Source: Stutzerimonas kunmingensis (GTDB taxonomy: Bacteria > Pseudomonadota > Gammaproteobacteria > Pseudomonadales > Pseudomonadaceae). From it: a stretch of DNA of 64,000 nt. Shown piece by piece: positions 3,185 to 4,871 of this stretch. Within the stretch, counting starts at the first letter, position 1; every line of letters begins with the position of its first letter. The DNA lies in NCBI RefSeq assembly GCF_021432085.1, contig NZ_CP090366.1:3534001-3598000 (forward strand). Direction: 5' to 3'. The notes below the pieces were generated by a model that saw only the letters and a list, made by a program, of their open reading frames with translations, made no database searches and was not told where the DNA came from. The translations under genes were made by a program, and so were the position numbers.

Positions 3185-3398
3185 GCGTACTCCCTCAGCG
3201 GTCTTGGATGAATTCAGGAGCGCCGAGTGTCGATCAGGCGCCGGGACCCGACAACCAACCGCCCGGAAATGAATGCCAGTGCATAAGAGTCGAGGATGGG
3301 CTGCTCCGACGCCAATGTTCTGGACGTTTTTTATTCATACCGCCGACAGCCGTGCCATCACTGGCCCGGCGGCGTATTTGCCCAAACAACTCACAGCG

Positions 3399-3422
3399 TT
3401 ATCCACAGCCATCGTGGATAAC
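3399..3422. other. DnaA-box pair, short spacing
   Basis: TTATCCACA at 3399-3407 is the exact DnaA consensus. It is followed by CGTGGATAA at 3414-3422 in inverted orientation, one mismatch from TGTGGATAA. The gap is 6 bases, unlike the three other pairs in this region. Confidence 0.55.
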
Positions 3423-3585
3423 TGATGCGATCACTACCATCGTGAAACGGCACCGCACACATTGCCTATTAACGTGCGAGGCCTTCTGTTATGCGGCCTG
3501 TGGTCGCATCAAGCGGGACTGAGCAAAAAACGCACATACTGCTGGAAGTCCCGCACCGCTTCGCCTAGAGCAGACCTTCCCAAGG

Positions 3586-3620
3586 TTATCCACAGAACCG
3601 CACACACATATCGGGGATAA
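3586..3620. other. DnaA-box pair, 17-base gap (copy 1)
   Basis: TTATCCACA at 3586-3594 is followed after exactly 17 bases by the degenerate inverted box CGGGGATAA at 3612-3620. The geometry is identical to the pairs at 4549 and 4721. Confidence 0.55.
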
Positions 3621-3666
3621 ATGAAGCGGCAAATAGCGCAAGTGCTATCACGGCAATGTCGAGAAT

Positions 3667-3696
3667 CTAAGAGCGCTGGGAGCGCCCTGTTCTTAG
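3667..3696. other. Stem-loop before the small ORF
   Basis: CTAAGA and TCTTAG flank an inner GCGCT-GGG-AGCGC hairpin, with extra unpaired bases (CCTGT) on the 3' side. There is no U-run. It may be a leader structure or an operator; role unknown. Confidence 0.35.
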
Positions 3697-3728
3697 CATG
3701 AGTGCATCAACCGACGGAGAGATCGTCC

Positions 3729-3806
3729 ATGTCCAGTCGCAATCTGCTCGAGAGCCTGTTTGCCAATTACGCGTGCGCCAGTGGAGGTGCATTGAACGGC
3801 CGCTGA
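3729..3806 (+). CDS. Possible 25-residue small ORF upstream of the LOG gene
   Basis: An ATG at 3729 with GGAG at 3716-3719 (nine-base spacing) opens a frame of 25 codons reading MSSRNLLESLFANYACASGG and a few more residues, ending with TGA at 3804-3806. It lies 72 bases before the LOG-family gene on the same strand. The composition resembles a real peptide, but length alone gives no statistical support. It could be a small protein, a leader peptide or chance. Confidence 0.3.
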   Translation: MSSRNLLESLFANYACASGGALNGR

Positions 3807-3878
3807 CATCGCCGAGCACGCTTGGCCGTTCGTCCATGCCCGCGTACCCTTCCGCCAGCCCTAAGAGCGGAGTAAACG

Positions 3879-4466
3879 ATGACCTTGCGTTCCATTTGCG
3901 TTTTCTGCGGCGCCAGCCGTGGTTCGAATCCCATCTATGAACAAGCAGCCCAGGATCTCGGCCGCACCCTTGCGGCCAACGGCATCCGGCTGATCTACGG
4001 CGGCGGCGCCGTCGGCCTGATGGGGGTGGTGGCAGACGCCACCATGGCTGCCGGCGGCGAGGTGATCGGCATCATTCCGCAGAGCCTGAAAGATGCCGAG
4101 GTCGGCCACACCGGCCTCACTCGGTTGGAAGTGGTCGACGGCATGCACGCCCGCAAGGCGCGGATGGCAGAGCTCGCGGATGCCTTCATCGCTTTACCTG
4201 GCGGGCTGGGTACGCTGGAGGAGCTTTTCGAGGTCTGGACCTGGGGTCAGCTTGGCTATCACCCCAAACCGCTCGGGTTGCTGGACGTCAACCACTTCTA
4301 CAGCAAGCTCAGTCATTTCCTCGATCACCTCGTCGAAGAGGGATTCGTCCGCTCCCAGCACCGCGAGATGTTGCAACGTAGTGACGAGTCGCAGGCGCTC
4401 ATAGAGTTGCTGGATGCCTGGCAACCGCCTACTCATAGTCGCTGGGCCAAAAATTCGCCGCTGTGA
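3879..4466 (+). CDS. LOG family protein, cytokinin riboside 5'-monophosphate phosphoribohydrolase (TIGR00730)
   Basis: A 195-residue cytoplasmic enzyme of the LOG/lysine-decarboxylase-like fold. Family members hydrolyse nucleoside 5'-monophosphates, including cytokinin ribotides and AMP, to free base and ribose 5-phosphate. Diagnostic motifs are GGGAVGLMG (residues 41-49), the MHARKARM helix (89-96) and the catalytic PGGLGTLEE (107-115). GGAG lies seven bases before the ATG. The gene is flanked on both sides by DnaA-box pairs, which is a feature of the locus and not of the protein family. The natural substrate in bacteria is not settled. Confidence 0.9.
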
Positions 4467-4548
4467 TCTGGCTGAATCCAGCTGATCAAATTTCACCCTC
4501 CGAGCTGTAGCCCACGCATCAAGCGGGCCGCAGCTCTGCCTCCCCATG

Positions 4549-4583
4549 TTATCCACATGCGCATCCACAGCAAAAGTGGATAA
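4549..4583. other. DnaA-box pair, 17-base gap (copy 2)
   Basis: TTATCCACA at 4549-4557 and AGTGGATAA at 4575-4583 in inverted orientation. Within the gap the heptamer CCACAGC begins 16 bases after the first base of the left box, the same place as in the copy at 4721. Confidence 0.6.
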
Positions 4584-4720
4584 GCGCTCGCTTCGACCTG
4601 TTGTGTTACGCATGTGCGGGCAATACGACGTTTTAGAAGCCTTGAACCTGCGAACGTACAATTTTCGATCAATAGGCTCGATCGCTAGTGCCGCTAGGGC
4701 TGTAGCAAGCAGCTAAATGG

Positions 4721-4755
4721 TTATCCACAACTCGGCCCACAGCTGTAGTGGATAA
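4721..4755. other. DnaA-box pair, 17-base gap (copy 3)
   Basis: TTATCCACA at 4721-4729 and AGTGGATAA at 4747-4755. The layout is left box, 7 bases, CCACAGC, 3 bases, inverted right box, matching the copy at 4549 position for position. Confidence 0.6.
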
Positions 4756-4871
4756 GGTAGCCGAACGAATCGAACGCGCTGGACTCAACAAAAGCATCGC
4801 TCGTCTAATTCCTAGGCTTACACCATGGGTGCATCAACAAGGCTTCAATCGCTGCATCAGGGCAGACGTCC

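Follow-up and report, generated by a model that had tools for sequence, protein, structure and literature searches.

Four DARS-like DnaA-box cores, each with a Fis-like site, form a probable replication-timing control locus in a Stutzerimonas chromosome

The closest described counterparts of the locus reported here are the DARS sites of Escherichia coli, DARS1 and DARS2, of which DARS2 requires IHF, and datA, which is likewise a DnaA-box cluster away from oriC. Passages of PMC5742627 state that DARS1 and DARS2 share their spacing, with box I running opposite to boxes II and III, and that DARS1 is active in vitro with no added factors. According to the part of PMC10380432 drawn on here, the head-to-head pair of boxes I and II is characteristic of DARSs and essential, and box III stimulates. 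The same source states that many proteobacteria conserve DARS-like sequences, so the wide occurrence of such sequences is not new as such. In the passage of PMC4245941 that we cite, conservation of Fis, and likewise of the DARS2 core, is described as specific to gamma species related to E. coli.

The window analyzed here is the whole stretch of 64,000 nucleotides that spans bases 3,534,001-3,598,000 of a 4,775,870-bp chromosome. It contains four exact copies of the 9-mer TTATCCACA and no others, all on the plus strand, at the positions that the first-pass annotation had reported (3399, 3586, 4549, and 4721); shuffles lead to an expectation of 0.13 copies, and four or more were reached in 0 of 100 shuffles. 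The genome as a whole has 24 exact copies, and the four perfect boxes within 1.35 kb at this locus are the densest cluster among them. Around these 24 boxes, inverted partners (at least 6/8 positions) peak at start offsets of +26 (5 of 24) and +14 (4 of 24), and direct partners peak at -12 (5) and +12 (2), against a mean background of 0.13 to 0.16 partners per offset.

The annotation had also described three of the boxes as having an inverted partner after exactly 17 bases, which holds for 3586, 4549, and 4721, and had set the box at 3399 apart because its partner follows after 6 bases. The box at 3399 does have an inverted partner, although that 9-mer, CGTGGATAA, actually begins after 5 bases, and the pair is not an exception. 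Since boxes III and I of a single 12/14 layout make up the 17-base pairs, and boxes II and I of that layout make up the 3399 pair, all four boxes belong to one kind of element. In this element, box III is followed 12 bp on by box II in the same orientation, and 14 bp further by box I, which is inverted. The four copies are as follows.

3387..3421, plus strand: DARS-like core 1, with box III at 3387-3395 (CAACTCACA, weak), box II at 3399-3407 (TTATCCACA), and inverted box I at 3413-3421 (TTATCCACG)
3586..3620, plus strand: DARS-like core 2, with box III at 3586-3594 (TTATCCACA), box II at 3598-3606 (CCGCACACA, weak), and inverted box I at 3612-3620 (TTATCCCCG)
4549..4583, plus strand: DARS-like core 3, with box III at 4549-4557 (TTATCCACA), box II at 4561-4569 (GCATCCACA), and inverted box I at 4575-4583 (TTATCCACT)
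4721..4755, plus strand: DARS-like core 4, with box III at 4721-4729 (TTATCCACA), box II at 4733-4741 (CGGCCCACA, weak), and inverted box I at 4747-4755 (TTATCCACT)

A scan with the 12/14 offsets, requiring a score of at least 18/24 and at least 4/8 in every box, returned these four cores from the window and nothing else. In core 1, box III (CAACTCACA at 3387) agrees at 5/8 informative positions, box II at 8/8, and box I at 7/8; boxes II and I score 4/8 and 6/8 (TTATCCCCG) in core 2, 6/8 and 7/8 in core 3, and 4/8 and 7/8 in core 4. A perfect box II is therefore found in core 1 only, box II being moderate in core 3 and weak in cores 2 and 4, and three of the four cores combine a perfect box III with a weaker box II. 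All four nevertheless follow the DARS rule, with boxes II and III pointing the same way, box I opposite, and the spacing of DARS1 and DARS2. The locus is mostly noncoding, and the cores lie in intergenic gaps, two upstream of a LOG-family gene and two upstream of a DUF2726 gene. Read from the sequence in this way, the anatomy of the locus is almost certainly secure.

To compare this anatomy with that of E. coli K-12, we used the core between bioD and uvrB, which we take to be DARS1, and the core between rppH and mutH, which is DARS2 and was located by the primer sequence printed in PMC4585315. The boxes in the two E. coli stretches begin at 1608 (+), 1622 (-), and 1634 (-) in L010 and at 2636 (+), 2650 (-), and 2662 (-) in L009, and so in both there is a 14-bp inverted step and a 12-bp direct step, the same core geometry as in the window. 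The resemblance to DARS1 extends to its box I, TTATCCACT, which is also box I of cores 3 and 4. DARS1 differs in having one core, a perfect box II, and other neighbors, whereas the window array has four cores. DARS2, in which Fis is involved, likewise has one core, together with IHF sites and extra boxes as described in passages of PMC8682772 and PMC5742627. The window locus is not syntenic with either site, and its neighbors do not include mutH.

Chance is a poor account of this arrangement. Simulating the window 300 times with a first-order Markov model gave a mean of 0.007 cores and a maximum of 1 (score of at least 18/24), compared with the 4 observed; spaced pairs at random density, which the annotation had named as an outcome that would tell against its own reading, were thus not what we found. 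Among 484 box geometries, 12/14 was the richest both in the window (4 cores, next best 3) and in 20 loci from the genus (75 cores, next 54 for 11/26). When 59 family genomes were searched for TTATCCACA followed by 0-30 free bases and GGATAA, 103 of the 114 places recovered had DARS spacing (67 as II-I and 36 as III-I), palindromic duplicates having been taken out of the count. A whole-genome pattern with the gap one base short (at most 1 mismatch) gave no match, and it serves as an unplanned 1-bp control.

We then considered how far the pattern extends among relatives, reading genus, family, and class as Stutzerimonas, Pseudomonadaceae, and Gammaproteobacteria, an assignment drawn from named LOG-protein loci, the nearest of which belong to Stutzerimonas kunmingensis, S. 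chloritidismutans, and relatives. The three-box pattern with at most 3 mismatches was found in 99 of 99 own-family genomes, where a reversed-pattern control gave one match each in two genomes, and a slightly looser pattern with at most 2 mismatches was found in 25 of 25 genus genomes. A stricter pattern (at most 2 mismatches) occurred in 106 of 185 class genomes, a draw that takes in the own genome and one genus relative; the reversed control had 0 matches in the rows listed, and one extra base between boxes II and I lowered the count to 1 of 185. In a phylum draw, 93 of 200 genomes had the pattern, with some matches outside the class. Since these matches were counted irrespective of distance from dnaA, some of those outside the own family may be origin-linked, and single DARS-like cores may be widespread in the phylum. 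Genomes of one family outside the class (f183) had many matches of the form TNATCCACNNAGTTATCCACAGNNNCTGTGGATAR.

Within the genus, the array as a whole is conserved in place. It adjoins the same genes across the genus, namely SulP, SDR, LOG, and DUF2726 genes, while the spacers diverge, and each of the 20 loci analyzed retains at least one of the neighbors SulP, SDR, and DUF2726 beside it. The loci come from 25 genus genomes, including the own genome; four were omitted, of which G114 has an array nearly identical to that of the window, G101 has one core on a short contig, and G105 and G106 (2 of the 25) have, among the matches listed, no cluster of the array type and only cores elsewhere. At a score of 17, four cores are found in the window and in 17 of the 20 loci, and three cores in L088, L098, and L104. 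Cores within pairs are 151-204 bp apart, and the middle gap of the array measures 945-1005 bp where LOG is present and 255-329 bp where it is not detected. Loss of spacing in related strains was the other finding that the annotation had expected to count against it; the spacing is instead kept in genus and family.

The position of the strong box varies. In the window and many relatives, core 1 has TTATCCACA or TTTTCCACA as box II and a weak box III, and in other relatives (e.g., L092, L103, and L105) its box III is perfect and its box II is the weaker of the two. Given that the strong box of the same core varies between III and II among relatives, we read these as alternative forms that a single element appears to take.

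The genes that lie between and beside the cores raise the question of whether they belong to the element. Two features occupy the middle of the array.

3729..3806, plus strand: 25-codon micro-ORF (MSSRNLLESLFANYACASGGALNGR), located after core 2 and before LOG and containing a conserved LFANYA block
3879..4466, plus strand: LOG-family gene (TIGR00730 / Lysine_decarbox) between cores 2 and 3

The annotation had treated the LOG gene as the setting of the boxes. However, LOG was not detected in 6 of the 20 genus loci (L088, L097, L098, L101, L104, and L105), all of which keep the array, and two of the genomes lacking it (G015 and G031) have no close LOG relative elsewhere either. Since the array persists in these loci, the setting is incidental, and LOG is a passenger and not part of the element. 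Conversely, among 80 named LOG loci scanned up to 3 kb on each side, at least one core was found in 28 and none in 52, which indicates that LOG does not depend on the array. Other neighbors change as well: the SDR, LOG, and DUF2726 orthologues all went undetected in L101, SDR and SulP went undetected in L092, L096, and L105, and the DUF2726 match of L093 lies about 3 kb beyond the array. The micro-ORF has GGAGA 8 bases upstream and gave no match in a Pfam search; of 30 array loci scanned, 16 have short ORFs containing an [AG]NYA block (LFANYA in most cases) on the downstream side of a core, and loci that lack LOG are among them.

These observations bear on the idea that DnaA and Fis regulate transcription of LOG, the micro-ORF, the DUF2726 gene, or the SDR gene from this locus. 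The placement of the cores in gene gaps, upstream of LOG and of the DUF2726 gene, would agree with such regulation. Yet the array is kept where LOG is absent, and in L101 without detected SDR, LOG, or DUF2726; LOG loci mostly do without a core; and the other cores of the own genome stand beside unrelated genes. Regulation of LOG by the array was accordingly rejected, and because the neighbors change while the array stays, we judge transcriptional control of neighbors in general to be improbable.

Within stretches around exact boxes, the own genome has nine 12/14 cores, the four of the window and five others at 716206, 716419, 1679613, 3302322, and 3690451, those outside the window adjoining unrelated genes. 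The cores at 716206 and 716419 (L011, 4207 and 4420) form a second array, whose two cores lie 213 bp apart and have an adenosine deaminase gene on one side and an IMPACT/YigZ-like gene on the other; core pairs with a distance of 210-214 bp are seen in many genomes of the genus. The single core at 1679613 (L018, 1114), with the form CTGTTCACA..TTATCCACA..GGTGGATAA, lies between ComEA-like and DUF1232 genes, and near-identical sequences are found in at least two other genera (g15 and g19).

We next looked for conserved sequence outside the boxes by anchoring on box III 65 de-duplicated genus cores (79 before the removal of cores sharing more than 75% identity across the flanked stretch). A second conserved block, TGntCAAAAttcganCA, runs from -66 to -50 of box III, and apart from it the flank holds mainly a weak dyad centered at -30. 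The block resembles the Fis consensus, given as GnnYAnnnnnTRnnC in passages of PMC8682772 and PMC10380432. With at most one mismatch, this consensus fits at -65 in 52 of 62 genus cores, 22 of them perfectly (53 of 65 before removal of three reverse-strand readings of the same boxes); the runner-up offset, which overlaps the box region, reaches 22 of 65, and at the median offset the count is 0. The commonest mismatch falls at position 11, where the consensus has T and the 62 cores have C in 30 and T in 27. Wider family sets fit less well at -65 (13 of 21 and 5 of 12). Each core of the window has such a site, starting 65 bp upstream of box III.

3322..3336, plus strand: Fis-like 15-mer of core 1, GGACGTTTTTTATTC, with 1 mismatch to GnnYAnnnnnTRnnC
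3521..3535, plus strand: Fis-like 15-mer of core 2, GAGCAAAAAACGCAC, with 1 mismatch
4484..4498, plus strand: Fis-like 15-mer of core 3, GATCAAATTTCACCC, with 1 mismatch
4656..4670, plus strand: Fis-like 15-mer of core 4, GTACAATTTTCGATC, with 1 mismatch

At the five other cores of the own genome, the fit is perfect in one (716419), has one mismatch in two, and has three mismatches in two (3302322 and 1679613). The genome encodes homologues of both Fis and Hda, the former with 58% identity over residues 16-96 and the latter with 51% identity, and Fis itself may occupy the -65 site, as the fit to its consensus suggests. DARS2 has matches on the same side, that of box III, with a perfect one at -125 and a one-mismatch one at -43 (located by the consensus, independently of the published Fis sites), and DARS1 has no match with at most one mismatch closer to its core than -125. 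By its sequence, then, the flank carries a Fis-like site of the DARS2 type, often with C at position 11, and what appears to be new here is a conserved dyad that fits the Fis consensus and has its start 65 bp ahead of box III.

The weak dyad precedes each box III by about 30 bp, with arms at about -46..-36 and -24..-14 (e.g., CTGCAAGCC/GGCTTGCAG in L093). It is the best pairing centre in the genus set (0.41 versus a mean of 0.25) and reaches 0.37 in the family set with a perfect box III; in the 12-core set with a perfect box II, another centre is better. A covarying hairpin between the Fis-like site and the core was rejected, as the pairs do not rise above column shuffles. Since it pairs no better than those shuffles, the dyad is at most a palindromic protein site, possibly one for a dimeric protein between the Fis-like site and the core.

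What the copies share also bears on whether they are a dispersed REP/MITE-like repeat in which words resembling DnaA boxes occur by accident. The presence of several similar 35-mers in a genome would agree with this. However, the copies have in common the boxes, the -65 motif, the weak dyad, and little else, and the array is found next to the same genes throughout the genus, and so we regard a repeat as very improbable.

An IHF-like site, in contrast to the Fis-like one, has no conserved position. Searching for TAAnnnnTTGATW and a looser form at every offset on both strands, we found that the best offset, at most two mismatches allowed, accounts for 17 of 62 cores and overlaps box III, and there is no match with at most one mismatch in window positions 3250-4800. 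The array thus differs from DARS2 in its four cores, in the Fis-like site at -65 of each, and in the lack of a conserved IHF-like position. It differs also from E. coli datA, which is IHF-dependent and has another box arrangement, with one marginal 12/14 match (score 18, box I 4/8). Of the datA/DARS-like control locus proposed in the annotation, the DARS side gains from orientation, spacing, conservation, and the Fis-like site, and the datA side is weaker, owing to the marginal match and the IHF result.

A datA-like sink, in which the array would titrate DnaA or promote ATP hydrolysis so that free ATP-DnaA drops after the locus is replicated, is nonetheless the most probable of the alternatives. 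Four perfect boxes in 1.35 kb, the densest among the genome's 24, would suit a sink, strong boxes III with weak boxes II could retain DnaA without ADP release, and a passage of PMC5742627 describes datA-like clusters outside oriC in Bacillus subtilis and Streptomyces. Yet the geometry is that of DARS and is marginal in datA, titration does not demand the exact 12/14 spacing seen across the class, and datA needs IHF, as stated in the part of PMC10380432 cited here, whereas the array has no conserved IHF-like position. We therefore consider a sink unlikely.

Dense DnaA boxes with no dnaA nearby might also suggest a second or cryptic replication origin. The 9-mer box of the array is also that of oriC, in this genome and in E. 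coli. However, the array contains no AT-rich unwinding stretch, its lowest 60-mer having 43% GC compared with 20% in the own origin-side stretch, and no 12/14 core at score 18 is present in the E. coli oriC stretch or in the own contig-end stretches L013 and L014, which flank the presumed dnaA. Because the AT-rich element is missing, an origin is very unlikely. The second match of the Hda search, in a 481-codon frame at 430-1134, is taken here as dnaA, and the array lies about 1.24 Mb from it, or 26% of the chromosome.

Given that four copies of the DARS pattern each have a probable Fis site at a fixed distance, the locus is probably a control site for replication timing. We think it rather likely, by analogy with E. 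coli, that it is a four-core DARS-type site with the putative activity of reactivating ADP-DnaA with the help of Fis. DnaA would occupy the inverted boxes II and I, which are spaced by 14 bp, in a head-to-head manner, with box III, 12 bp from box II and in the same direction, aiding the loading of DnaA, and Fis, bound some 60 bp upstream beyond box III, would shape or stimulate the complex. The head-to-head ADP-DnaA would then release ADP, depart as apo-DnaA, and rebind ATP. We propose that the array, by returning ADP-DnaA to the ATP form, would increase the level of ATP-DnaA ahead of the following initiation at oriC. The four cores of the window, and at least five elsewhere on the chromosome, could provide high or graded capacity, and Fis could couple the activity of the array to growth phase. 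Occupancy by DnaA and Fis, ADP release, and an effect on initiation timing are all expectations carried over from work on DARS in E. coli. The main doubt concerns box II, which has to pair head to head with box I. In three of the four cores it is weaker than the perfect box III, whereas in DARS1 box II is the perfect one, and cores of this kind might take up DnaA, release ADP inefficiently, and so act as a sink.

To our knowledge, the recharging of DnaA outside the enteric model is a largely open matter. Literature searches for DARS with Pseudomonas and for DnaA boxes with P. putida, covering mainly papers outside subscription journals, returned no title or abstract describing a pseudomonad DARS among the matches listed. 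What seems to be new, as far as sequence comparison goes, is the multicore array and the Fis-like site that accompanies each core. The exact geometry can be searched for in one line, one added base serving as the control (106 versus 1 of 185 genomes), and the Fis-like unit, together with the fact that either III or II can be the strong box at a given array position, predicts a role for each box. We suggest, tentatively, that the Pseudomonadaceae may carry a distinct class of DnaA-recycling locus, in which tandem DARS cores each have their own Fis site at a fixed 65 bp and the strong box has often moved from II to III. Such an array might work as a high-capacity switch gated by Fis, and hence by growth phase, and the weak box II would possibly make head-to-head pairing dependent on the level of DnaA, giving a cooperative or graded response, unlike the single-core sites of E. 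coli.
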